36,802 nt of DNA, taken from Spirochaetia bacterium (GTDB taxonomy: Bacteria; Spirochaetota; Spirochaetia; CADAEX01). Shown one piece after another: positions 2,177 through 29,017 of this stretch. The stretch covers positions 69,211 to 106,012 of the forward strand of contig JAFXTY010000050.1 in the NCBI GenBank assembly GCA_017535435.1. The letters run 5' to 3'. How positions within the stretch are numbered: the stretch's first letter is position 1; each line of letters begins with the position of its first letter. Below the pieces are notes generated by a model. That model searched no databases and was not told the DNA's origin. It saw only the letters and a list, made by a program, of their open reading frames with translations. The translations under genes were made by a program, and so were the position numbers.

Positions 2177-3181
2177 ATGGAAAAAGAGATTACCATCCGT
2201 AAGCCATCTGATATGCACCTGCATCTGAGACAGGGCGATATGCTGAAGACCACAGTGCAGGATGCGGCCACCTGGTTTGCTCAGGGAGTGGTGATGCCGA
2301 ACACTGTTCCAGCCATAAACACTCCAGAACGGCTGATTGCTTATCGTGATGAGATTCTTTCCCTTGCTCCCGATTTCAAACCCATAATGAGCTTCAAATT
2401 ATACCCGGGGATGAGTGCTGATGCAGTCAAAGCCATGGCCTCCTCAGGAACTGTCTTAGGCAAGCTTTATCCTGCAGGCGTCACCACCAATTCAGAGGAT
2501 GGAGTGAAGTCCTGGCACGAGATAAAGGAGGCGCTGGGGGCTATGAGCGACCTGGGCCTGGTACTCTCCATACACTGCGAGAAGCCCGACTCCTTCTGCC
2601 TGGAGCGGGAGTATGAGTACCACCAGGAGTTTGCCGCCATCGCCAAAGCATATCCTGATTTACGCATGGTGTTCGAGCATATATCGGACCGCCGCTCCAT
2701 TGACTTTTTAGCCGGCCTCCCGGACAGGGTGGCAGGAACCATAACAGCACACCATCTGCTGCTGACTTTAGATGATGTGCTTGGAGCAAATATGAATCCC
2801 CACGTCTTCTGCAAGCCTGTGGTGAAAGGGCCCAAGGACCGGGAGGCCCTGCGGCGGGCTGCTTTCTCCGGCGACAAGAAGTTCTTTTTCGGATCTGACA
2901 GCGCGCCGCATCTCAAGACAAAGAAGGAGTCGGGCACCGCTGCCGGCGGCATCTACTCTTCGCCTTTCGCAGTGCCCCTTATGGCACAGCTTTTCGAAGA
3001 GCATGGACAGCTGGATAAGCTTGAGAACTTCATGTCGATATATGGTCCTGCCTTCTACGGTATTGCGCCGGCAGCGGGCTGCATCACGCTGGTGCAAAAA
3101 AAGAGCACCATCCCGTCGGTCATCGACGGAATAGTGCCCCTTTATGCAGGAAAAACAGTATCCTGGAGCCTTAAGAATTAG
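2177..3181 (+). CDS. pyrC: Dihydroorotase (PyrC, class II)
   Basis: A 334-aa amidohydrolase of the E. coli PyrC type, close to the usual 340-350 aa. It catalyses the reversible cyclisation of N-carbamoyl-aspartate to dihydroorotate in de novo pyrimidine synthesis. Metal and substrate residues are visible: His14 and His16 in MHLHLR with Arg18, Lys96 in GKLYPAG (the carboxylated lysine), His133 in SIHCE, His168 in FEHISD, and the catalytic Asp241 in FGSDSAPH. No other pyrimidine gene lies nearby, so it is probably a single-gene unit with its own promoter. Its stop overlaps the convergent lemA stop by 4 bp. Confidence 0.96.
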   Translation: MEKEITIRKPSDMHLHLRQGDMLKTTVQDAATWFAQGVVMPNTVPAINTPERLIAYRDEILSLAPDFKPIMSFKLYPGMSADAVKAMASSGTVLGKLYPAGVTTNSEDGVKSWHEIKEALGAMSDLGLVLSIHCEKPDSFCLEREYEYHQEFAAIAKAYPDLRMVFEHISDRRSIDFLAGLPDRVAGTITAHHLLLTLDDVLGANMNPHVFCKPVVKGPKDREALRRAAFSGDKKFFFGSDSAPHLKTKKESGTAAGGIYSSPFAVPLMAQLFEEHGQLDKLENFMSIYGPAFYGIAPAAGCITLVQKKSTIPSVIDGIVPLYAGKTVSWSLKN

Positions 3182-3744
3182 AACTGAACCTGAGGTACAG
3201 CCCGGGCTGAATCTGCAATCTCGAAATAGGACTTTTTCTCAAATCCCATATTGCCGGCCACAATGGAGGAAGGGAATACCTTTATCTTGGTGTTGAATGT
3301 CCGTACAGAATCATTGTACCGCTTCCGGGCTACAGAGATGCGGTTCTCGGTGCCGGCCAGCTCATCCTGCAGAGCTTGGAAATTAGTGTTGCTCTTCAGT
3401 TCTGGATAGTTCTCTGCAATAGCCAGAAGCCGCCCCAGCGCGCTCTGCATCTGGTTGTAGCCATCAGCCTTCTCTTCTACAGTAGCAGCTCCAGCCAGCT
3501 TGGACCGTGCCTCTGCCACATTGTTGAAGACATCGCTCTCGTGCTTTGCATAACCCTTCACTGTGTTCACCAGGTTAGGGATCAGGTCAGAACGCCGCTG
3601 GAGCTGGTTGTCGATCTCTGACCATGCGGCGCTGGTCTGCTCGTCCAGTGTCACCAAGCTGTTCCGGGTACTTATATACCATCCGAAGATGACAGCAAGA
3701 ACTGCCACTATAATTAAAACTGTCATTAAGCCTTTGTTTTTCAT
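3178..3744 (-). CDS. lemA: LemA family membrane-anchored protein
   Basis: A 188-aa protein with one N-terminal membrane segment at about residues 7-23, followed by the helical LemA domain. The characteristic stretch is NSLVTLDEQTSAAWSEIDN, then LQRRSDLIPNLVNTVKGYA. The domain would lie outside the cytoplasmic membrane as a long coiled bundle. The molecular function of LemA is not established. An AAGGAG lies 6 bp before the ATG. It is 13 bp downstream of the TPM-domain gene, a pairing common in bacteria, and is the last gene of a three-gene minus-strand operon. It overlaps pyrC tail to tail by 4 bp. Confidence 0.93.
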   Translation of the reverse strand: MKNKGLMTVLIIVAVLAVIFGWYISTRNSLVTLDEQTSAAWSEIDNQLQRRSDLIPNLVNTVKGYAKHESDVFNNVAEARSKLAGAATVEEKADGYNQMQSALGRLLAIAENYPELKSNTNFQALQDELAGTENRISVARKRYNDSVRTFNTKIKVFPSSIVAGNMGFEKKSYFEIADSARAVPQVQF

Positions 3745-3757
3745 ACAATCTCCTTAC

Positions 3758-4534
3758 TTAAAAACCTCTGGAAGCACCGCCGCCTCCGAATCCGCCTCCG
3801 CCGAAGCCACCAAAGCCACCGCCGAAACCGCCGCATCCCCTGGAAGAAAATCCTCCGAAGCTGCCCCTGCCATGTCCATAGCCCGGGTACATTGCTCCGA
3901 AAGAGCTTCCGTAGTATCTGCGGCCTGTGCGTTTTGCGTTTTTCATCCGGCGTATCATCATTAAAAAAATTGAAACAAAAATTATAAAGAAAATGAGCAT
4001 GCAGAGCCGTTCAGTGAAGGTGTTGTCCTGCATCTTTGCCCGCTCATCCAGTTCCACATTCATCTCTGTGCCTATTGTGTCTGCAATCTTGAACACGCCC
4101 CGGCGCAGTCCTGCGCTGAAGTCTCCACCCCGGAAGTATGGGATTATGGTATTGTCCAGAATCCGTCCCGCCTTGGCGTCATTGAATATTCCCTCAAGGC
4201 CGTAGCCCACCTCGATACGCACCTTTCTTTCTTCCATGGCCAGAACTATGATGATACCAGTATCCTTGCCTTTCTCTCCCACCTTCCATTTCTCGGCCAC
4301 TGCCATAGAAAAGTCATCAATAGAGGTGTAGGGAGCCATAGATTTTACTGTGAGCACTGCAATCTGGGCACCGGTTTTTTCCTCAACTTCCTTTGCGACA
4401 CTTTCCATGGAGGCCTTGTCCTTTTCTGTTATCACAACGGCATAGTCATTCACATAGCTGGAATAGCCTGGAACATCATCGGCAAAAAGGCTTAAGGTGA
4501 GGAAGATTAAAAGAAGGAAGAAGAGTTTTCTCAT
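3758..4534 (-). CDS. TPM-domain (YgcG-type) exported protein with Gly-rich tail
   Basis: A 258-aa protein. A signal peptide of about 18 residues (ending LFADD) is followed by a TPM domain at about 25-150, shown by GAQIAVLTVKS, DTGIIIVLAM and VRIEVGYGLEG. A membrane helix lies at about 178-196. The tail is rich in Gly, Phe and Ser with repeated GGFGG units. TPM domains are found in YgcG-like proteins and in photosystem repair; here the domain would face the periplasm. Its ATG overlaps the stop of the upstream nucleotidyltransferase-like gene (ATGA). The lemA gene follows, so the two products may act together at the inner membrane (inference from conserved pairing). Confidence 0.9.
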   Translation of the reverse strand: MRKLFFLLLIFLTLSLFADDVPGYSSYVNDYAVVITEKDKASMESVAKEVEEKTGAQIAVLTVKSMAPYTSIDDFSMAVAEKWKVGEKGKDTGIIIVLAMEERKVRIEVGYGLEGIFNDAKAGRILDNTIIPYFRGGDFSAGLRRGVFKIADTIGTEMNVELDERAKMQDNTFTERLCMLIFFIIFVSIFLMMIRRMKNAKRTGRRYYGSSFGAMYPGYGHGRGSFGGFSSRGCGGFGGGFGGFGGGGFGGGGASRGF

Positions 4535-5250
4535 TTTATGTTCAGCTTATCCACAAAGTCCACAATATTCACAAGGGCCAGAATCAGATCCACCACCACA
4601 CTCTCTATAGGGGTGTCCTTTTCAATCCTGCAGATATCCTTGAAAGGCTGAGGATTGAAGTCGATGTATTCTGATGCAGCCTTAAGGTTCTCCACATAGG
4701 TGTATGCAATTTTTTCCTCTCCCACAAGGCGCAGGATGGAACGGAAGATAGCATTGTAAAGCCCCTGGGTATGACGCACACCATTGGCGATGTACTTCGG
4801 GTTGCTCTCGGAAAGAAGCAGTACCTGGCGAAGTGAATTGATGCATCCCCGGAGCCGGTCCTCGGTCTGGAGCCTCAGGTTGGCCCGTGATATGGCAAGA
4901 TTCTGGAATACGTCATCACCGTAGATAACCTTGTGCAGATCCTTGATGTCAAAGTATTCCATAGGGAAGATGTCGGCTGATGATATGAACTCGTTGTAGC
5001 TCAATATTGTTGGGGTGATGTTGTTGTTCTGCAGTGTCTTTGCAGCATATTTGCCCAGCACCACAATCCGCTCCGGGTCTGCCTGGTTAAGGATGATGAG
5101 CAGGTTGGTGTCTGATGAAAGAGGGTTATAGTTCTCTGTAAGGATGCTGCCATAAAGGATGATTGACTTCAGGTTGTCACCGAAGGCAGTCTTGGCCTGC
5201 ATCACAAAGTCTTTTTCTACAGAATTGATTCTATCTTCTTTAATACTCAT
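4531..5250 (-). CDS. Nucleotidyltransferase-like protein with altered active site
   Basis: A 239-aa protein whose first 80 residues resemble the DNA polymerase beta-type nucleotidyltransferase fold: an IILYGSIL segment followed about 11 residues later by SSDTNLLIIL. In active members the second position carries a second acidic residue (D-x-D/E); here it is Asn, so metal binding and catalysis may be changed. The remainder is helical, with no domain I recognise. It is the first gene of the operon with the TPM and LemA genes (4-bp overlap), and GGAGA lies 6 bp before the ATG. Substrate and function are unknown. This is not the MNT antitoxin found elsewhere in the window. Confidence 0.75.
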   Translation of the reverse strand: MSIKEDRINSVEKDFVMQAKTAFGDNLKSIILYGSILTENYNPLSSDTNLLIILNQADPERIVVLGKYAAKTLQNNNITPTILSYNEFISSADIFPMEYFDIKDLHKVIYGDDVFQNLAISRANLRLQTEDRLRGCINSLRQVLLLSESNPKYIANGVRHTQGLYNAIFRSILRLVGEEKIAYTYVENLKAASEYIDFNPQPFKDICRIEKDTPIESVVVDLILALVNIVDFVDKLNIK

Positions 5251-5303
5251 ATTGTCTCCATAATAAACTTATCAAAAAAATGGCAGAAAAACAATAATGA
5301 TTA

Positions 5304-5312
5304 TGTTATAAT
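5304..5312 (+). promoter_or_regulatory. Extended -10 promoter for the MmcQ/YjbR gene
   Basis: A perfect TATAAT at 5307-5312 is preceded by TG and one base, which is the extended -10 form. No good -35 box is visible at the usual distance. The predicted start near 5319 leaves a leader of about 13 nt with no clear Shine-Dalgarno sequence before the ATG at 5332. Confidence 0.55.
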
Positions 5313-5331
5313 GAATGAATAGTATTGAGCT

Positions 5332-5997
5332 ATGTTTGAAGAAAAACTGTATCACAAGAAAATGAATCCTCAGAAACTTAAAGATTATGGCTTTACAAAA
5401 AATGGTGCGGCGTACGAGTACAGAACATCGATTTTAGAAGGTAGTTTTGCCCTGTTGATTACCATTTCACAGGATGGGGCGATAGGCACCAGGCTCGTGG
5501 AGCAGCCGTCTGGAGAGGAATATGTCCTGTACAAGACAGATGCTGCGGGCTCTTTTGTAGGCAAGGTAAGATGTGCCATCAGTGATGTGATAGAAGATAT
5601 TGCCCGGAAATGCTTTGATATCGCTGTTTTCAAGAATCCTCAGACCGAGGCGGTCATAGAATATATACGCAAGAAATATGGTGATGAGCTGGAATTTCTA
5701 TGGGATAAGCTTCCCGATGCAGCTATATGGCGGCGAAAAGAGACTAATAAATGGTATGGCATTATTATGACGATATCGGCCAGGCGTCTGGGGCTTGATT
5801 ATGACACCAAGGTTGAGGTCATGGATTTGCATATCAATCCTGAAAAAATGGATGACCTGCTTAAAAATCCAAACTATCTTCCCGGTTACCATATGAACAA
5901 AAAGCATTGGTTCACTGTAATCCTTGATGGCTCAGTGAACAACGATGAGCTTTTCAGCCGTATCGATGAAAGCTACGTATTGGCAAAAAAGAAATAG
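5332..5997 (+). CDS. MmcQ/YjbR family DNA-binding-like protein
   Basis: A 221-aa protein. The C-terminal half (about 105-215) matches the MmcQ/YjbR (CyaY-like) fold: KKYGDELEFLWDKLP, RRKETNKWYGIIM, a DLHINPEKMDDLL segment and GYHMNKKHWFTVIL. The N-terminal 100 residues are an extension often seen in longer members. YjbR-type proteins are annotated as DNA-binding from structure, but no firm role is known. The ATG at 5332 follows an extended -10 promoter but has no clear ribosome site; a later Met at residue 11 is an alternative. It has no operon partner: the upstream gene is divergent, and the AT-rich McrBC genes downstream have a different composition. Confidence 0.85.
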   Translation: MFEEKLYHKKMNPQKLKDYGFTKNGAAYEYRTSILEGSFALLITISQDGAIGTRLVEQPSGEEYVLYKTDAAGSFVGKVRCAISDVIEDIARKCFDIAVFKNPQTEAVIEYIRKKYGDELEFLWDKLPDAAIWRRKETNKWYGIIMTISARRLGLDYDTKVEVMDLHINPEKMDDLLKNPNYLPGYHMNKKHWFTVILDGSVNNDELFSRIDESYVLAKKK

Positions 5998-6033
5998 AAA
6001 AAATTTTACTGTAGCGTTATTTGAGACAGGTGT

Positions 6034-6042
6034 GGTAATATA
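6034..6042 (+). promoter_or_regulatory. Possible extended -10 promoter for mcrBC
   Basis: TG plus one base followed by TAATAT (6037-6042) fits an extended -10 box. It lies just before the AGGAGAG ribosome site at about 6053-6059 that serves the mcrB ATG at 6065. No -35 box is evident. The call is weak. Confidence 0.3.
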
Positions 6043-6064
6043 AGAAAGGTTAGGAGAGAAAAAA

Positions 6065-8446
6065 ATGAGTGATTTTACTTGGATTCCAATTTATGAGGAA
6101 TTGGCTAAAAAGTTACTTGAATATAAAGATAGACGAAAAGAACTGATAGAGTTCATATTCTCAGATGCTGGGTTGAAAGAATTTTCAGGATACCTTCATT
6201 TAGAAAATAAAACTCAGATTATTGATGATATTGATCCCTTCTCTTTTATGGGGATGTTCAATCGAGGCAGCCTAGCTATCGGCAAAAGAAAAGCAATTTT
6301 AGGGAAAATAAAAGAAAAATTAAATCTTGATGCTGACATTCCATCAGATTTTGATGGTATCCCTGTTTTGAGTTATAGCAGAATGTTTTTCTATGATTGG
6401 AATGACTTTCTTGAAAGTTGCAACATTCTTTGGGATTCGTATGAAAAAATGATGAATGGTTCTTTAGAATCATGGTTTAACTATTATAAGTTTAAAACAA
6501 GAAAGGCAGAATGTACAATGCCATTGTTTTGGTGTAAACCAGAGGATTATATTGCATTGGATAGCCGAAATACTGAATATTTAAAGCAAAAGGGTATAGA
6601 TGTGGATATCAACGATGCCGATTCATATCTTAACTTGTTGCAAACGATAAAAGGTAAAATGGCTTCTAACGAACTGACAGAAAACTCGTTTGCAGAGATT
6701 TCTTATAATGCTTGGGATTACTCAAATCAGAAAAAAACCCAGTATTGGATATTCGCTCCTGGAGAAAAAGCTGATAGATGGAATGAATTTTATAAAACAG
6801 GAGTTATGGCTCTTGGTTGGGATGAAGTTCAGGATCTTAAAAAGTATGCAACGAAAGAAGATGTTAGGTCTGTAATAAAAAATATTTATAATAGAGAGAC
6901 ATCTGCAACAAATGATGCCCTTGCTAATTGGCAGTTTGCAAATGAAATAAAAACAGGTGATATAGTTTTTGCCAAAGAAGGGCTGTATAAAATAATTGGC
7001 CGGGGAGTTGTTGCTGGAGAATATGAATATAAACCAGAAAAAGATGAATATCGTCATATTAGAAAAGTACATTGGAGCAATAAAGGCGAATGGGAGGCCC
7101 CTTTTAAATTACCCCAAAAAACATTGACAAATATCACCAATTTAAAAGAAAAGGTTAAGCAACTTGAAAGCTTATTTGATCCTGAGGATGCTAAAATAAA
7201 CGAAGGGAAAATAACATATAATAAATATGGTGAATATGTAAATCTACTTAAAAATGCCAAAAATATTATCCTACAAGGTGCCCCAGGAACAGGAAAGACT
7301 TATTCAACAGCAGAAATTGCACTTTCTGTTTTAGGCTATGATACCACACAATATCAAAGTCACGAAGAGTTGATGAAAGTTTTCAATGATTTGCGTTTAA
7401 AAATTGATAGTAGTTCAGGAAATGTTTTAAGCGGGCAAATTGGATTTGTTACATTTCACCAGTCGATGGATTATGAGGATTTTGTTGAAGGAATCAAGCC
7501 TAAAACAGATGGGATGGGAAATGTTATTTATAATGTAGAAGATGGAATCTTTAAGACGATTGCAAATAAGGCAAAATATAAAAAATCGAGTAACTTTGAA
7601 AATGCATATACAAATTTTATTACAGATATTAGCGACTATGAAGATGAAAAGCCTTTTAAATTAAAAACTCGATCTAATAAAGAGTTTGCGGTTACCGTAA
7701 ATGGCAACAACAACTTGTCTCTTTATACCGGCAAGTCGTTTCGTAAAAATGGGGTTTTGACTAAAACAAATATTATTAAACAGATTCAAGGTGAAGAAAA
7801 ATTTAAAGGTTGGGAGGGATATTTCTTCGGAGTAATTGATTATCTGGCTGCAAAATATGGTTATAAAGAACAAACAGAAAAACAAAAAAACTATGTTCTT
7901 ATCATCGATGAAATCAACAGGGGAAATGTATCAAAAATATTTGGTGAACTTATCACACTGTTGGAGGCGGATAAACGCTCTGGTGGTGAACACTCTTTGC
8001 ACGTGATTCTCCCTTACTCAACAGATGAATTTGAAGTTCCGTCAAATCTATATATCATTGGCACGATGAATACAACTGATCGTAGCGTGGGAAATATAGA
8101 TTATGCTGTGCGCCGTCGTTTTTCTTTTATTACTCTGCCATCTAGTCGTGAAGTTGTCGCAGAAAAATGTGGTGAAGATAGCAAGAGTGTCCTGTTGTTT
8201 GACGCAGTAAAGAACTTTCTTGAAAAGAACAAAATCGAAATGGATATTGATGACCTTATGGTCGGGCACAGCTATTTCTTTGCCGAAACAGAAAATGAGC
8301 TTAAGCTAAAATGGAAATACAATATTCTTCCTTTACTTCGAGAGTATTTCAAGGATGGTATTATTCGAAAAAATGTCGCAAAAGATTGTGTGATTGACAC
8401 TTTCATAAATGACAATAAGAAAGAACAGAAATCAGATAATGAATAG
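6065..8446 (+). CDS. mcrB: McrB-type AAA+ GTPase with EVE-like modified-base sensor domain
   Basis: A 793-aa predicted motor and sensor subunit of a modification-dependent restriction system. Residues 1-220 are a helical region I do not recognise. Residues about 225-350 look like an EVE/YTH-type reader: QYWIFAPGEK, GVMALGWDEV, a DLKKY segment, then GDIVFAKEG and IIGRGVV. The AAA+ module follows, with Walker A GAPGTGKT at about 405, FHQSMDYEDFVEG near 475, Walker B IIDEINRG near 610 and the McrB signature GTMNTTDRS near 664. EVE domains in other McrB proteins are proposed to bind modified cytosines. GTP rather than ATP use is family knowledge. Strong AGGAGAG upstream. The gene is clearly more AT-rich than its neighbours, suggesting transfer. 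It overlaps mcrC by 8 bp. Confidence 0.92.
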   Translation: MSDFTWIPIYEELAKKLLEYKDRRKELIEFIFSDAGLKEFSGYLHLENKTQIIDDIDPFSFMGMFNRGSLAIGKRKAILGKIKEKLNLDADIPSDFDGIPVLSYSRMFFYDWNDFLESCNILWDSYEKMMNGSLESWFNYYKFKTRKAECTMPLFWCKPEDYIALDSRNTEYLKQKGIDVDINDADSYLNLLQTIKGKMASNELTENSFAEISYNAWDYSNQKKTQYWIFAPGEKADRWNEFYKTGVMALGWDEVQDLKKYATKEDVRSVIKNIYNRETSATNDALANWQFANEIKTGDIVFAKEGLYKIIGRGVVAGEYEYKPEKDEYRHIRKVHWSNKGEWEAPFKLPQKTLTNITNLKEKVKQLESLFDPEDAKINEGKITYNKYGEYVNLLKNAKNIILQGAPGTGKTYSTAEIALSVLGYDTTQYQSHEELMKVFNDLRLKIDSSSGNVLSGQIGFVTFHQSMDYEDFVEGIKPKTDGMGNVIYNVEDGIFKTIANKAKYKKSSNFENAYTNFITDISDYEDEKPFKLKTRSNKEFAVTVNGNNNLSLYTGKSFRKNGVLTKTNIIKQIQGEEKFKGWEGYFFGVIDYLAAKYGYKEQTEKQKNYVLIIDEINRGNVSKIFGELITLLEADKRSGGEHSLHVILPYSTDEFEVPSNLYIIGTMNTTDRSVGNIDYAVRRRFSFITLPSSREVVAEKCGEDSKSVLLFDAVKNFLEKNKIEMDIDDLMVGHSYFFAETENELKLKWKYNILPLLREYFKDGIIRKNVAKDCVIDTFINDNKKEQKSDNE

Positions 8447-9788
8447 AATTATTAATTTTCAGGAACATCAGTCCCGAAAAATTACTGATATCACTGAATT
8501 GAACGGAATAGATAGTATTGCTACTTCTTTAAAGCTGAAAGGCTTACCCGATGATTTTATGGGTGCACCTAAATATTTAGGGCTTTTTGCTGATTCTGAA
8601 ACTATTGTATCATCATTTTACATCGGTGCAACTTGGCTTAAGGAGAATGAACTTGCAACTGTGGTAAACCCGAAAATAAATGTTGATTATTTAAAGATGT
8701 TTTCCGATGCTCTTGAAGTCGATTCAGAAAAAGAAAACAATTATTTTTCAAAGTGCTACGGAATTGAATTTGACAAAAGTGAAATTGAATTACACAGTGA
8801 ATTCAACATCATCACGCCGCTCATCTTGATTCATTATATTTCGGTTCTAAAAAATCTTACAAAGCACGAACTCAAAAAAGGCTATATCTATTACGAAGAA
8901 AATCTAAAGTCAAAAGTAAAGGGTCATTTGCTTTTTCAAAAACACCTGCGTAAAAATATAATCAGAAAATGTGAGAACAGGGCATATTGTGGCTTCCAAG
9001 AATACACGGAAGACATCGCGGAAAACCGACTATTGAAAAAAGCTTTGATTTTTGCAAGCAGGGCAATTGACAATTATAAAAGTCTTACGAGGCAAAAAAC
9101 TTTTGATGAATTAAAAATTGCAATCAATCAGCTTTTTTCCGCTTTTACAAATGTTTCAAACGAGATTGAAACCCATGAAATAAAATCATTACGCTTCAAC
9201 AAGCTATTTGCTAATTACCCCGAGGCGATAAAACTTGCCAAAATGATTTTGAGAAAATACGACTATTCGCTTCAAAAAACGGAACAGGCGGAAACCAAAA
9301 CGCTTCCATTTTGGATTGATATGCCCCGTCTTTATGAAATGTATGTTTATAAATGGCTTAAAGAGAATACTGATGATGAAGTTTTATTTCAGGTGGAAGG
9401 TTATCGAGGGACAGCTGCAGATTTTGTTTTGGCCAAGCAAGGAATCGTTTTGGATGCAAAATATAAGCCCCATTACAAGGATTCAAAAAGAGGAATTATT
9501 GATGATATTCGCGAGATGAGTGGTTATGCCCGCGATGAAAAAATTTTGCGTCATTTTGAAAACCCCAAAACAGCAATCGTACCGTGTGTGATTTTATATC
9601 CTGAATCTTTTGAAGAAATGAAAGAGTTTGGGGCTGATGAAGGATTTGAAACAAAAACAATTAACCAAATCCACTCTGGTGATGAAAGTTTTGATAAGTC
9701 AAAAGGTTTATTAGCACAGTGCCAAAGCATAAAAGCCTATAGAGATTTTTATAAACGAAAAGTTAATGTTCCAATAATCAAAGAATAA
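8439..9788 (+). CDS. mcrC: McrC-type PD-(D/E)XK nuclease subunit
   Basis: A 449-aa partner of McrB. The N-terminal part (about 1-270) resembles the McrC region that docks on the McrB ring. The C-terminal part is a PD-(D/E)XK nuclease: WIDMPRLYEMYVYKWL at about 288-303, then GTAADFVLAKQG and VLDAKYKPHY at about 325-345, giving the Asp...Asp-x-Lys site. The ATG at 8439 is chosen over one at 8409 because it gives the short 8-bp overlap typical of coupled subunits. The gene shares the AT-rich composition of mcrB. Both subunits look intact, so the system is probably functional, cutting foreign DNA after McrB recognises modified bases. Confidence 0.92.
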   Translation: MNRIINFQEHQSRKITDITELNGIDSIATSLKLKGLPDDFMGAPKYLGLFADSETIVSSFYIGATWLKENELATVVNPKINVDYLKMFSDALEVDSEKENNYFSKCYGIEFDKSEIELHSEFNIITPLILIHYISVLKNLTKHELKKGYIYYEENLKSKVKGHLLFQKHLRKNIIRKCENRAYCGFQEYTEDIAENRLLKKALIFASRAIDNYKSLTRQKTFDELKIAINQLFSAFTNVSNEIETHEIKSLRFNKLFANYPEAIKLAKMILRKYDYSLQKTEQAETKTLPFWIDMPRLYEMYVYKWLKENTDDEVLFQVEGYRGTAADFVLAKQGIVLDAKYKPHYKDSKRGIIDDIREMSGYARDEKILRHFENPKTAIVPCVILYPESFEEMKEFGADEGFETKTINQIHSGDESFDKSKGLLAQCQSIKAYRDFYKRKVNVPIIKE

Positions 9789-9798
9789 TTTTTTGCAA

Positions 9799-9831
9799 CT
9801 ATTCCAGAATTGACAGGATTATCTGGAATAG
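9799..9831. repeat. 10-bp perfect inverted repeat downstream of mcrC
   Basis: CTATTCCAGA (9799-9808) and TCTGGAATAG (9822-9831) are perfect reverse complements separated by 13 nt, 10 bp after the mcrC stop. No T-run follows on either strand, so it is not a standard intrinsic terminator. It could be a transcript-end stabiliser, a protein-binding site or an insertion scar. Confidence 0.6.
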
Positions 9832-9950
9832 AAAATAAGCAAAATGTATCAAAATCTTTTCTAGAATCTCATCTACACGAGAGGAGTGGGTTAACCTGCC
9901 TCTACTAGGGGTGGAGGGGGCTGCCTGAACCAGCACCCCAAAATAGGAAG

Positions 9951-10030
9951 GCACAGCAAAAGGCACTCCTGGCGGTATCTCCGGCCCGTAGGGAGCGGAA
10001 CCACCGAGCAGGGGTGTCTTATTGCTGTGC
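9951..10030. repeat. 80-nt structured repeat, copy 1
   Basis: The sequence folds into one long hairpin. P1 is 9951-9959 with 10022-10030 (9 bp). Two A-T pairs beside a bulged A at 10021 follow. P2 is 9962-9971 with 10009-10018 (10 bp, two G-U pairs). An apical stem pairs 9980-9983 with 9996-9999. Copy 2 at 28932-29011 has the same length and the same core, with six paired positions changed on both sides. It could be transcribed after mcrC (plus) or as the 3' end of the ligase transcript (minus, 4 nt after its stop). An outer 13-bp inverted repeat (9924-9936 with 10040-10052) extends it into the ligase coding end. Confidence 0.8.
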
Positions 10031-10033
10031 TTG

Positions 10034-11656
10034 TTACTTGTGCTGGTTCAGGTAGTTCACTAACTGGCGCGGAGTATGCAGGTTGAATACATCCTCGAAG
10101 GAGATACCAGTTATATTGCACTCCGCAATTGCCTCGGCCACCGCGATGGAGTCGGCACCCAACTGTACAAAGTCATCATCCATACCGTAAGGCTCTATAT
10201 TCAGCACACGGCCGAAGCTGCGGCACAGTGCTTTTTCCAGAGCGGTGGCCGGTGCGGCGTAAGGGGCCCGGTACTGGGCAAAATCTGGCTCCGGCAGGGC
10301 TGTGAAGTCCAGCTTTCCGCTGGCTGCCAGCGGTACCTTTTCCAGGTGGATGAAGAATGCAGGTATCATATATTCAGGCAGCTTGGTCTCCAGTTCCTGC
10401 CGGAGCTGGTTGGCGTCGAAGCCGGCCGGGCCGGTGTAGTAGGCGCATATGAATGTTGTATGCTCCTTCTCGAAGCCCTTTACGGCGCACCAGGCTGAGT
10501 TATCTGTCTTTTTGAGCACTGCCAGGATTTCTGACGGCTCTACTCTGTTGCCGTTGATCTTTATCATGAAATCCATCCGGCCAAGGTGCATTATGTTGCC
10601 GTCCGGCAGCTTTTTACCCAGGTCGCCGGTGTGGAAAAGACCGTCCCGGAACTTCTCCCTATTCATCTCGGGCAGGTTGATATAGCCCTTGACGCATGGA
10701 TTTTTTATGCAGATCTCCCCCTCTTCGCCGTCCGGCACTTCCTTGCCATTTTCATCCAGGATATAGAGCATGTCAGGAAGTGTGGGCAGTCCGATTGGGG
10801 CAGCTCCCCGTCTTCCGTCGATCGGGAAAATTGTCACCAGGTATCCCATCTCTCCCATTGTGAAGAGGTTGTAGATCGGGACAGGAAGGGCATCCACATC
10901 AGTAGCAACTTCGCCACCTATGTAGATCTGCTTGAGATATGAGTTGACCTTCCGGTATGCCTTCAGCAGGGACGGGGTCATGAAGATGCCTTCTATCTTG
11001 TTATCCTCTAAATAATTATAGAGCAGATGAGGGGTTTTTACAGTGTTGTAGTCCAGCACAAATATAGTGCCGCCATAATATGTGATGATGGTGGAAATCT
11101 CGAAAGCCACGAAGTTGAGAGGGAATATGACGCCGAAGTTGGGGCCGTGGGAAAGGAGGTATTCTCCTTTGTAGTTGAAGGCCTCAAGGTTTCTCTCTAG
11201 GAAGCTTCTCAGATGAACAGCCCCTTTGGGTTTCCCGGTGGTGCCTGATGTATAGATGGCGCACAGGGGATCATCCTGCTCTGTCTCGGCCCAGCCGTCA
11301 AAGCTCTTCTGCCGGATAACCTCGTCCCAGTTCTGCTGGTTCAGCGTGAGCTTGCAGCTGCAGTCATTCTCGATGAACTGCGCCCGGGCTGCCGGAGCAC
11401 TGGCTTCAAGAACCACGAATGCGGCTCCAGCCTTGATAATTCCCAAAGCTGCCACATAGACCATGGCGCCCCTGGGCAGGTTTATGAACACAAAATCGCC
11501 TCTTCCCACACCCTTGGAGCGCAGATATGTGACAACCTGGCCGGTAAGCCTGTCCACATCGGCATAGGTAAGCTGGTTTCCCAGCTGATCCACGAGGCAT
11601 AGCTTGTCGGGAATTGTCATCATCTGTTTTGCTATCTGCTGGCAGAATGGGGTCAT
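10034..11656 (-). CDS. Stand-alone adenylation domain fused to a peptidyl carrier domain (NRPS-like A-PCP)
   Basis: A 540-aa protein. An acyl/aminoacyl adenylate-forming domain covers about 1-455, with core A3 YTSGTTGKPKG (135-145), A7 FHTGDLG, A8 RMDFMIKINGNRVEP and A10 PLAASGKLD. A carrier domain at about 465-540 carries LGADSI, in which Ser503 would hold phosphopantetheine. The A5 position reads NLFTMGEMG instead of the common N-x-YGPTE, so substrate choice is hard to predict. It would activate an acid as the AMP ester and load it on its own carrier. No condensation, thioesterase, Dlt or transferase gene is nearby, so the acceptor is unknown. GAAGGAG precedes the ATG. Confidence 0.88.
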   Translation of the reverse strand: MTPFCQQIAKQMMTIPDKLCLVDQLGNQLTYADVDRLTGQVVTYLRSKGVGRGDFVFINLPRGAMVYVAALGIIKAGAAFVVLEASAPAARAQFIENDCSCKLTLNQQNWDEVIRQKSFDGWAETEQDDPLCAIYTSGTTGKPKGAVHLRSFLERNLEAFNYKGEYLLSHGPNFGVIFPLNFVAFEISTIITYYGGTIFVLDYNTVKTPHLLYNYLEDNKIEGIFMTPSLLKAYRKVNSYLKQIYIGGEVATDVDALPVPIYNLFTMGEMGYLVTIFPIDGRRGAAPIGLPTLPDMLYILDENGKEVPDGEEGEICIKNPCVKGYINLPEMNREKFRDGLFHTGDLGKKLPDGNIMHLGRMDFMIKINGNRVEPSEILAVLKKTDNSAWCAVKGFEKEHTTFICAYYTGPAGFDANQLRQELETKLPEYMIPAFFIHLEKVPLAASGKLDFTALPEPDFAQYRAPYAAPATALEKALCRSFGRVLNIEPYGMDDDFVQLGADSIAVAEAIAECNITGISFEDVFNLHTPRQLVNYLNQHK

Positions 11657-11789
11657 CTTGAGTTCTCCTTCTTAATTTGACTATAACAGATTTATTTTTA
11701 AAGGAAAATAGGGAAAAATATCATACAAAATATTTATGATTGTCATTTATTTTACGTCGGAAAACTTAACAAAAACGAGCTTGCGACTA

Positions 11790-11818
11790 TTGTAAAAACT
11801 GTCTTGTAATAGTATAAT
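11790..11818 (+). promoter_or_regulatory. Predicted pyruvate carboxylase promoter (TTGTAA / 17 bp / TATAAT)
   Basis: TTGTAA at 11790-11795 and a perfect TATAAT at 11813-11818 are 17 bp apart, predicting a start near 11825. A leader of about 31 nt contains AGAGGAG before the ATG at 11856. The 199-bp divergent gap with the A-PCP gene is otherwise AT-rich with no clear operator. Confidence 0.7.
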
Positions 11819-11855
11819 TTTTAAAATAACTAATAAATGGTCAAAGAGGAGCGTT

Positions 11856-14800
11856 ATGGCTATTAGACAATTTAAAAAGGTAATGTCTGCCAACAGAGGC
11901 GAGATTGCCATCAGAACTTTCAGAGCTTGTGGCGAACTTGGACTCAAGACAGTGGCTATTTATTCCAACGAGGACCGGTTGTCTCTTTACAGAACTAAAG
12001 CAGATGAATCCTACCTTGTAGGAAAGGGAAAGAGCCCGATCGATGCTTATCTGGGAATTGATGAGATCATTGAGCTTGCACTTAAGAAGAATGTAGATGC
12101 CATCCATCCTGGATACGGATTCCTTTCCGAGAACCCGGAATTCTCCCAGAGATGTGAAGAGGCAGGAATTGTATTTATCGGACCTACCGCACAGCAGCAG
12201 AGAACTCTTGGTGACAAGATTGCAGCAAGACAGGCAGCTATCAAGGCCGGTGTTCCAGTTGTACCAGGAACAGACTTCCCTATCGAGAAGACCGAGGATG
12301 CCCTTAAGTTTGCAAAGGGCTGCGGATATCCAATCATCGTAAAAGCTGCCGCAGGTGGCGGTGGTAGAGGAATGAGAGTTGCCAACAACCAGCAGGAGCT
12401 GCTTGAAGGTATTGCAGCAGCAAAGAGCGAGGCTCAGGCTGCATTCGGCGACGGTACAGTATTCCTTGAGAAATATCTTGAGCGGCCGAAGCACATCGAG
12501 ATCCAGATCATGGGCGATAACTATGGAAACATAGTTCACTTCTTCGAGCGGGACTGCTCCATCCAGAGAAGACACCAGAAGGTTATCGAGTTTGCTCCAT
12601 CCCTGGCTATCTCCGACGAGCTCCGGGACAAGCTGTGCAAGAATGCTATCAAGATTGCAAGCCAGGTTAAGTACCGCAATGCAGGTACAGTTGAGTTCCT
12701 GGTAGATAAGAACGAGAACTTCTACTTCATCGAGATGAACCCAAGACTCCAGGTAGAGCATACTGTTACAGAGCTCATCACCGGCTGGGACTTGGTTCGG
12801 ACTCAGATTCTGGTTGCAGAGGGCTATGCCCTTACCGATCCAGAGGTGGGCCTGTTCAGCCAGGACTGCGTGACAAAGCGCGGTTATGCAATCCAGTGCC
12901 GTGTCACCACAGAGGATCCGGAGAACAACTTCGCTCCAGACATGGGAACTATCAAATCCTATAAGTCTCCTGCCGGATATGGTGTCAGACTGGATGCTGG
13001 AAACGTATTCACCGGTGCAAAGATCACAGGAGAATATGACTCCCTGCTGGTAAAGGTATCAACTCATGCCCTCACTTTCAAGAACGCAGCTACAGTAATG
13101 AAGAGAGCTCTGGGCGAGTTCAAGATCAGAGGTGTGAAGACCAACATACCATTCCTGGAGAACGTAGTTTCCAACGATATATTCCTGGAAGGAAAATGTG
13201 ACACATCCTTCATCCAGGATCATCCGGAGCTTAAGATTGTCAAGAAGTACCGGGACAGAGCTACCCGTCTTATGAACTTCCTGGCAACCACAATTGTAAA
13301 CGGAAACGAGATTGTCAAGACTCCACGGAAGGCAACAGAGTTCAGAGAGCCTCCGATTCCTGAGCTCAACAAGATCAATCCTCCACAGAGCGGAACCAAG
13401 CAGCTCTTGGATGAGATGGGACCAGAGAAATTCTCCAAGTGGATCTTAGACCAGAAAAAGCTCCTCATTACAGATACAACTATGCGGGATGCACATCAGT
13501 CACTGCTGGCAACCCGGTTCAGAACCTATGACCTTACACGGATTGCAGATGCAACTGCATATCTGGCACCGAACCTCTTCTCTATGGAGATGTGGGGTGG
13601 AGCTACCTTCGACGTTGCTCTCCGGTTCCTTAAGGAATGTCCATGGGCACGGCTTGAGAAGCTCAGAGCTCAGGTTCCGAACATCCTGTTCCAGATGCTC
13701 CTCAGATCCTCCAATGCAGTAGGATATACAAACTATCCTGACAACGTTATCTACAAATTCGTAGAAGAGTCTGCAAAGGGTGGAATCGACCTCTTCAGAG
13801 TATTCGACTGTCTCAATAATACAAAGGGACTTGCAGTTCCTGTAGATGCAGTTCTCAAGACTGGAAAGCTGTGCGAGGCAGCAATGTGCTACACCGGCGA
13901 TATCGATGATCCAAAGCGTGACAAATATAGCCTTAAGTACTATGTAAATATTGCAAAAGAGCTTGAGAAGATGGGAACCCACATCCTGGGAATCAAGGAT
14001 ATGGCAGGCCTTATCAAACCATACGCTGCTACAAAGCTTATCAAGACACTTAAGGAAGAGATCGGCATCCCAGTTCATCTGCATACACACGACACATCTG
14101 GAAACGGAGTTGCAACACTGCTCCGGGCTGCAGATGCAGGTGTAGATATTGTTGATACAGCAATCTCCGCAGTTTCCGGTGTGACAGCACAGCCAAGCCT
14201 TAACGCAGTTGTTGCTGCCCTTGCTGGACAGGAAAGAGATACCGGTATTGATATCAACGGACTCAACCCATTGGCTAACTACTGGGAAGTTGTCCGCACC
14301 TACTACTCCGGATTCGAGAGCGACCTTAAAACAGGTACTGCCGAGGTTTACTACAACGAAATTCCTGGTGGACAGTACTCCAACTTCAAACCGCAGGTTG
14401 CAGGCCTTGGCCTGATCGACAAGTGGGAAGAGTGCAAGAAGATGTACCACGATGTGAACGATCTGTTCGGCGATGTAATCAAGGTTACACCATCCTCCAA
14501 GATTGTTGCAGATATGGCAATGTTCCTGGTTCAGAACAACCTGACCACAAAGGACGTGATTGCAAAGGCCGACGAGCTTACATTCCCGCAGTCAGTAATC
14601 GACTTCATGAAGGGAATGGTTGGTCAGCCATATCAGGGCTTCCCGAAGGATGTACAGAAAGCTATCCTGAAGGGCGAGGAGCCTATCGACTGCCGCCCAG
14701 GCGAGCTGCTTGAGCCTATCGACCTGGATGCCACAAAGAAGACAGTTGAGGATGCTATCGAGCGGGAGATCGACGATCAGCAGCTTATGTCCTATGTAAT

Positions 14801-28931: not shown

Positions 28932-29011
28932 CCCAGGCAAAAGGCACCCCTGGCGGTATCCCTGGCCCGCAGAGAGCAGGACCACCGAGCAGGGGTGTCT
29001 TATTGCCTGGG
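28932..29011. repeat. 80-nt structured repeat, copy 2
   Basis: It has the same fold as copy 1. P1 is 28932-28940 with 29003-29011, P2 is 28943-28952 with 28990-28999, there is a bulged A at 29002, and the apical stem pairs 28961-28964 with 28977-28980. The conserved loop core GCGGTATC, GCCCGYAGRGAG and ACCACCGAG is shared. P1 differs from copy 1 at four pairs and the apical stem at two pairs, each still complementary. It lies between hepT and the right 19-bp direct repeat, in the same orientation relative to the defence genes as copy 1. Confidence 0.8.
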
Positions 29012-29017
29012 CTTGTC

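Follow-up and report, generated by a model that had tools for sequence, protein, structure and literature searches.

In the pathway described for McrBC systems, the reader domain binds its target, McrB hexamers form, McrC stimulates GTP hydrolysis and McrC cleaves (PMC11090510). The reader differs among the systems closest to the one studied here. In Escherichia coli K-12 it is of the DUF3578/ADAM type (PMC11090510). McrB of Thermococcus gammatolerans (YTH-McrB; organism as given in PMC7680126 and PMC10602043) carries a YTH/EVE-like reader on its GTPase and is specific for N6-methyladenine (6mA) (PMC7641849, PMC7897488). Among the EVE fusions of defence systems, Bell et al. 2020 (PMC7641849) name EVE-McrB, in which an EVE-superfamily reader is joined to the McrB GTPase, as the commonest. 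Here we analyse an McrBC locus at positions 6065-9788 of a 36,802-nucleotide stretch of DNA from a Spirochaetia bacterium (contig JAFXTY010000050.1, positions 69,211 to 106,012; hereafter the window). This locus is of a known kind, the EVE-McrB branch of McrBC, with two unusual features: an unnamed but widespread N-terminal domain (N-domain) and exchangeable recognition slots. We know of neither in T. gammatolerans McrB, that is, of no N-domain before the reader and of no slot exchange. The window shares with EVE-McrB/McrC the EVE-superfamily reader on the GTPase and the adjoining McrC, but differs from the proteins in the accessible part of PMC7641849 by about 220 extra residues before the reader and by the swapping of that reader among near relatives. 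With E. coli it shares an AAA+ GTPase bearing NxxD, the partner McrC and the order mcrB-mcrC; the available text of PMC11090510 does not describe such an N-domain for the E. coli protein.

Both genes are intact, encoding an McrB of 793 residues and an McrC of 449, and neither contains a frameshift or an internal stop codon. The mcrB gene starts with ATG, a few bases downstream of AGGAG. In the mcrC open frame the earliest ATG lies at 8409; the start at 8439, which overlaps the mcrB stop by 8 bases, is likelier. By sequence, the two identities are assigned through Pfam, NCBIfam and the Protein Data Bank (PDB): AAA_5 is found in McrB and McrBC (PF10117) in McrC, and the best PDB sequence match of McrB is to the T. 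gammatolerans McrB structures 6ut3-6ut5. McrB contains GAPGTGKT (residues 405-412), IIDEINRG (613-620), NTTD, which fits NxxD (669-672), and RRRF (683-686), and McrC contains TAADFVL (325-331) and LDAKYK (338-343). We take these to be Walker A, Walker B, arginine fingers and the PD-(D/E)xK nuclease motif. Thus Walker A/B and NxxD mark the window protein as an AAA+ GTPase of the McrB type, next to an McrC with a PF10117 region, and since these motifs are intact, the same pathway would operate here. A preliminary description of the sequence had claimed complete motifs in both subunits and had named assembly frameshifts as what would overturn it; the motifs are all present, frameshifts are absent and its coordinates are right. 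PF10117 occurs only once in the host genome (1.7 Mb, 82 contigs). No Rfam match was obtained for positions 5000-12000 of the window.

Features of the mcrBC locus, in window coordinates.
Feature	Positions	Strand	Description or basis
mcrB	6065..8446	+	793 residues; N-domain, then EVE-like reader, then insert-bearing McrB GTPase; AAA_5 8.4e-13; 6ut3 6.6e-49
N-domain, residues 1-222	6065..6730	+	recurring all-helical module without Pfam match
Slot A	6716..7258	+	block replaced by unrelated sequence in congener G004; blastn break 6715/7259
EVE/YTH-like (PUA-fold) reader, residues 223-375	6731..7189	+	AlphaFold2 model; Z 11.9 to 1wmm; PADLOC PDC-S02 3.7e-18
Walker A GAPGTGKT	7277..7300	+	motif reading
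Slot B	7592..7891	+	GTPase-internal insert, about residues 510-609
Walker B, IIDEINRG	7901..7924	+	motif reading
NTTD, NxxD GTPase signature	8069..8080	+	meaning of NxxD from PMC11090510
mcrC	8439..9788	+	nuclease subunit, 449 residues; PF10117 8.6e-30; alternative start 8409
Putative PD-(D/E)xK motif of McrC, AADFVL...LDAKYK	9411..9467	+	motif as we take it to be

The McrB protein can be read as a constant N-domain, a slot A, here occupied by the EVE/YTH-like reader, and a GTPase core with a slot B between Walker A and Walker B, served by a separate McrC. Comparison with relatives argues for this division. Between the window and the McrB of its congener G004, 164 of 217 residues are identical in the N-domain (76%), 72 of 93 (77%) and 129 of 183 (70%) in the GTPase and 99 of 120 (82%) in slot B. 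For slot A, the alignment score is reached by 102 of 200 shuffles, and the protein z value is about 0, versus 125 and 50 on either side. The DNA aligns by blastn over 6008-6715 (77.6%) and 7259-9623 (73.4%), with no alignment between. Slot B, kept in G004, is not found in the McrB of Proteus mirabilis plasmid R997 and is replaced in Bacteroidales relatives. In one pair of metagenome-assembled genomes (MAGs), labelled Paludibacteraceae and Bacteroidales (L070 and L073), both slots are replaced: the DNA is 86.0%, 85.2% and 86.3% identical in three successive segments separated by two gaps. In another pair, two Paludibacteraceae MAGs from buffalo and yak rumen (L071 and L072), identity is 96.7% over positions 5803-7395 and 96.1% over 7945-12654, with no alignment from 7396 to 7944. 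Slot B is the only block replaced within mcrB in this pair, the DNA upstream of the operon differing as well, and its occupant is an EVE-like domain in one member (9.6e-26) and nothing seen by profiles in the other. In both pairs an open reading frame (ORF) lies between mcrB and mcrC: by eye it resembles a REP-associated Y1 transposase in L070 (8388-9065) and L073 (8295-8999), and it is a different ORF, of 287 residues, in L071 and L072.

Pairs were counted among 39 proteins, obtained from 54 readable N-domain proteins after removal of 11 without a parsable GTPase motif set and 4 identical copies. In a clade of six, with N-domain identities of 60-100%, a z value above 15 was reached in slot A by 2 of the 15 pairs and in slot B by 1 of 15; intermediate values (6-10) were given by one pair in slot A and two in slot B. 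Controls came from the other pairs in which the N-domains are at least 50% identical and slot A has 100 residues or more in each member; those taken, L080/L091, L088/L089, L074/L110 and the L095 group, kept slot A (z 84-286). Pairs between L053 and the L095 group have slot A of unequal lengths and z 6-8, and may differ too. Sequence comparison thus shows slot A or slot B replaced between sharp borders, while the remaining parts of the relatives stay 60-100% identical. In this sample, clear exchange is a feature of one clade. The reading frame of every ORF is kept to the left and right of the replaced blocks, which argues against assembly chimeras, although all the sequences come from MAGs. Block exchange in McrB on a near-identical chassis, and likewise the N-domain, were not described in the literature searched, whose supplementary files were beyond reach and may mention them. 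The pattern recalls target-recognition-domain exchange in HsdS of Type I systems, where swappable recognition blocks on a constant chassis retarget the restriction enzyme. The proteins and the chemistry differ, however, one of the slots lies within the motor domain, and the targets in our case are predicted.

The occupant of slot A was analysed by structure prediction. McrB residues 1-375 were modelled with AlphaFold2 on an alignment with 27 further rows from related loci, giving a mean predicted local distance difference test (pLDDT) of 91.7 and a predicted template modelling score (pTM) of 0.71; a model of full-length McrB from the single sequence (pLDDT 33.7) was discarded. In VIA-align, reader residues 225-372 matched PH1033 (1wmm) with Z 11.9 and a root-mean-square deviation (rmsd) of 2.1 over 109 aligned residues, YTHDC2 (Z 11.0, rmsd 2.8, 116 aligned), VcaM4I (Z 10.9, rmsd 3.0, 118 aligned) and MJECL36 (Z 11.1). 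The middle domain of McrB as modelled thus has the EVE/YTH fold, in agreement with the EVE-like domain proposed in the preliminary description. The Pfam EVE model PF01878 did not match the window reader at E<=1, while PADLOC PDC-S02 models did, and PF01878 matches behind the N-domain of the relative L113. The best match of the N-domain/EVE model in BFVD is A0A8S5NVT7, a Myoviridae phage protein (Foldseek E 4e-8) and a possible homologue from phage.

The fold of the reader does not tell which base is read, because the EVE domain of VcaM4I flips 5-methylcytosine or 5-hydroxymethylcytosine (5mC/5hmC) into a hydrophobic pocket formed with P24, W82 and Y130 (PMC7897488), while YTH domains bind N6-methyladenosine (m6A), according to the titles of the matched structures. 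Nor can the 6mA specificity of T. gammatolerans McrB be transferred to the window reader. The host genome has methyltransferase matches of its own (one C5, one N6/N4 and three N6), and a simple reader of 5mC or 6mA would therefore threaten the host. We infer that the mark that is read must differ in base or context from those of the host, or that the host methyltransferase genes are silent.

The N-domain had been described as extra residues that could not be assigned. Indeed, the first 222 residues have no match in Pfam or PHROGs and no credible one among PDB sequence profiles. By tblastn, 23 of 72,556 plasmid records matched, including the Deinococcus radiodurans MP1 McrB and the Proteus R997 McrB, but 0 of 50,697 phage records did. 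Viral contigs yielded no relative with three window-like N-domain queries and 12 with a Proteus-type alignment. A genome scan gave 25 loci from Spirochaetia, Bacteroidales, Verrucomicrobia, Chloroflexota, Firmicutes and others, some of these group names being presumptive; profile searches found the N-domain in 7 of 296 genomes sampled from the phylum and in 12 of 393 sampled at order level around the genome of L071. On this sequence evidence, the N-domain is a recurring, widespread module of McrB in many phyla and not a private extension. A role in membrane contact, also raised earlier, is not suggested by the model, which is all-helical and soluble-looking (no membrane predictor was run).

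The position of the N-domain varies. Two EVE-like profiles placed EVE-like matches between the N-domain and Walker A in 17 of the 54 proteins, ahead of the N-domain in 7 and within the GTPase in 4; one match was unplaced and 25 proteins had none. This set leaves out L046, L047, L084 and L092, where the N-domain match was too short or split by a stop. The R997 McrB, which adjoins Type I restriction-modification genes, resembles the window in joining an EVE-like domain, the N-domain and the GTPase within a single polypeptide next to McrC, but its order is EVE-like domain, N-domain, GTPase, and it lacks the slot B insert. In the L045 and L093 McrBs no domain precedes the N-domain, slot A is not large and an insert is missing, which leaves the N-domain as the only added part. 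In L029, from Bacteroidales plasmids (2989-4470), it is fused to an FRG domain (PF08867, 1.6e-20) without a GTPase; in the tblastn search of plasmids, three records, one of them unannotated, have an equal score. FRG is a candidate anti-viral effector of the ADP-ribosyltransferase (ART) superfamily (PMC9503650). Because it can lie ahead of the reader, behind it, by itself on the motor or on a different effector, we take the N-domain to be most plausibly a part for nucleic-acid contact or for sensing.

Some further observations concern N-domain proteins. The L029 fusion is a possible sensor-effector pair. L113, L114 and L116-L118 (Bacteroidales) were considered as another kind of N-domain protein and rejected, being McrB-like where read further: Pfam finds AAA in them and MrcB_N in L116, only a short stretch without assignment separates the N-domain ORF from the GTPase ORF in L113, and L114 is part of a 1109-residue frame with Walker A and EINRG. 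L112 is truncated by the end of its contig. L046/L084 and L047, from Treponema or related genomes, are N-domain McrB genes broken by stop codons and hence decayed copies. Finally, a second ERTAA..L...NP..Y-like region was seen by eye before residue 225 of L077 and in the L170 ORF 1173-4499, perhaps a distant paralogue of the N-domain.

Several points weigh against reading the slots as exchangeable specificity cassettes. DNA breaks are seen directly in three pairs only, all six proteins come from gut or rumen MAGs, and this single clade supplies every clear exchange. Several pairs retain weak slot similarity (z 4-9), and for some replaced slots a distant kinship with EVE is probable; part of what separates them could then be deep divergence brought in by recombination and not a new fold. 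The role of slot B in specificity rests on the EVE-like domains found there in 4 of the 54 proteins and on the remark that McrB GTPase domains often carry inserts "likely encoding specificity domains" (PMC11090510). Target choice and activity are predictions from sequence and model. The same weak similarities, together with the recurrence in slot A of EVE-like readers of different subfamilies, would suit slots that were never swapped as blocks and evolved fast by point mutation under phage pressure. We consider this very unlikely, given that L071 and L072 are nearly identical up to the block borders and dissimilar inside, with an EVE-like domain in one alone, that slot A of the window and G004 compares no better than shuffled sequence, and that slots differ in length. 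Still less probable is a McrB co-opted for a function other than restriction, like PcdA, which acts in the division of Staphylococcus cells, or a system that targets RNA like the CoCoNuTs. In favour of these, co-option of EVE-McrB proteins has precedents (PMC10602043) and YTH-like domains occur in CoCoNuTs (PMC11090510). However, PcdA has degraded motifs and no McrC, whereas the window retains Walker A/B, NxxD and the RRR motif undamaged, and its mcrC overlaps mcrB. CoCoNuTs are defined by NxD and have coiled coils and extra nucleases (PMC11090510), where the window has NTTD, and sporadic presence in the genus is ill-suited to a housekeeping role. Block exchange in a restriction system thus remains the preferred reading.

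A further alternative concerns the N-domain itself, which could be a diverged DNA-glycosylase fold of the HhH-GPD type, flipping, inspecting or even excising a modified base, so that McrB would hold two base-flipping readers of different folds. D166 (6560-6562), whose column is D in 40 of 46 relatives and N in 6, would then occupy the site of the catalytic Asp. Foldseek with the window model found MagIII (1pu7; E 0.04, probability 0.82) as well as MutY and SsOgg, and among ranks 27-50, 16 of the 22 non-YTH rows were glycosylases, from four proteins, which we take to be of the HhH-GPD superfamily. The diagonal aligning D166 with the Asp ranked 2, 2, 2 and 3 among about 400-500 ungapped diagonals for four reference profiles, its score being reached by 8, 15, 7 and 15 of 1000 column shuffles; the helix-loop-D-helix spacing agrees by eye, and the L045 and L093 McrBs carry the N-domain and GTPase alone. 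Against this, HHalign with 18 and then 50 HhH-GPD glycosylases gave probabilities of 0.1-0.4% in different regions, below the maximum of 1.9% among 200 column-shuffled controls. Pfam HhH-GPD (PF00730) does not match the N-domain, and the Foldseek match has a non-significant E value, an rmsd of 12 A and a TM-score of 0.36, its matched residues not being printed. The hairpin has no conserved lysine, N replaces D in six relatives, and the diagonal test was picked after the fold hint had been seen, with four references sharing one alignment. Each of the 50 VIA-align rows shown covers the reader, which leaves the N-domain fold barely sampled; that a fold family is missing among them excludes nothing. 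Significant profile similarity is lacking, and the N-domain is not filed in the HhH-GPD superfamily; we regard the glycosylase fold as a tentative idea, somewhat on the doubtful side. DNA glycosylases are known as stand-alone phage defence (Brig1 and Brig3, PMC13160076), but Brig3 has an AAG-like alpha/beta fold and its likeness to the N-domain idea is an analogy only.

The composition of the locus sets it apart. The guanine-plus-cytosine (GC) content of 6065-9788 is 33.8%, versus 49.6% in the rest of the window, and GC at third codon positions is 0.28 in mcrB and 0.30 in mcrC, compared with 0.54 in a pyruvate-carboxylase-like gene and 0.46 in the YjbR gene. The AT-richness and, as far as third positions show, the different codon use noted earlier are borne out. 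McrB relatives occur in 1 of 6 congeners, and the closest other N-domain relatives (61-66% in the N-domain) belong to Bacteroidales, another phylum. These three features argue that mcrBC was acquired horizontally, and the evidence supports an McrBC that is acquired, intact and equipped with an EVE-like reader. As G004 corresponds to JAGCPA010000024.1 (isolate RGIG9992, yak reticulum), we take the host for a spirochaete of the gut.

The insertion site was compared in four congeners, one of which has mcrBC and three a short gap or other small genes. Homologous flanks stop at about 5294 and 10019 against G004 and G003, and at 5294 and 9923 against G002; the flanking genes are nucleotidyltransferase-like (weak Pfam match) at about 5294 and an adenylation-domain gene at 10019. 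At this site G002 has about 420 bases. The stretch in G003 measures about 1.1 kb and includes an ORF that is HicB-like by eye, and G004 has a HicB-like ORF plus mcrBC. In G006, of which the fetched stretch covers the right flank, this flank is followed by a YjbR gene and, by eye, HicB-like and recombinase-like ORFs. The YjbR gene adjoining mcrB is found in 2 of 7 genomes of the genus and is cargo too. The site is thus a variable locus among congeners, not a fixed housekeeping neighbourhood, and the earlier placement between housekeeping genes is only half right.

At the right edge of the mcrBC insert (9950-10031) lies an imperfect palindrome of about 75 bases (fold z -4.1), a dispersed repeat with 16 matching places in the genome, the query and its own reverse arm included. 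A second copy is present at 28937-29016 of the window and another at the same edge in G002; the repeat resembles repetitive extragenic palindromic (REP) or miniature inverted-repeat transposable (MITE) elements. The neighbouring gene at 10034-11656 encodes one protein that unites adenylation and carrier domains (AMP-binding, PP-binding). Its 35% paralogue lies outside the window, about 13 kb off, and the gene might belong to a small biosynthetic system.

Altogether, the locus is probably a horizontally acquired, McrBC-type (Type IV-like) restriction system whose McrB consists of constant and exchangeable parts. What occupies the slots would decide which DNA, modified or foreign in some other way, is bound; binding would probably involve base flipping in analogy to the EVE-HNH enzyme VcaM4I, and the N-domain may be a general DNA-contacting or second recognition element working with any occupant. 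The McrB ring would then hydrolyse GTP, translocate and license McrC to cut. Swaps would occur at the ends of conserved elements, namely the end of the N-domain, the start of the Walker A strand and the stretch before Walker B, so that recombination of a slot could retarget the system without rebuilding the motor. Reader-dependent target choice is inferred from the predicted fold and from the exchange pattern, and Type IV-like defence under pressure to change targets is the most economical account.

In a bolder version, which we find plausible at somewhat less than even chance, this is a combinatorial Type IV system. Its constant chassis would comprise the N-domain, possibly a glycosylase fold contacting or flipping bases, the GTPase and McrC; it would carry two independently exchangeable cassettes, before and inside the motor, and recombination between gut bacteria of different phyla would retarget the system against new phage DNA modifications. 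The same N-domain would also be built into the FRG effector, as a sensor common to both. If target choice does lie in the slots, L071/L072 and the window/G004 pair are natural domain-swap experiments: in each, a single recognition block of McrB differs on an enzyme that is otherwise shared, so that one could test directly what modification is read by each EVE-like or inserted domain. The function of the N-domain, once assigned, would annotate many defence loci at once.

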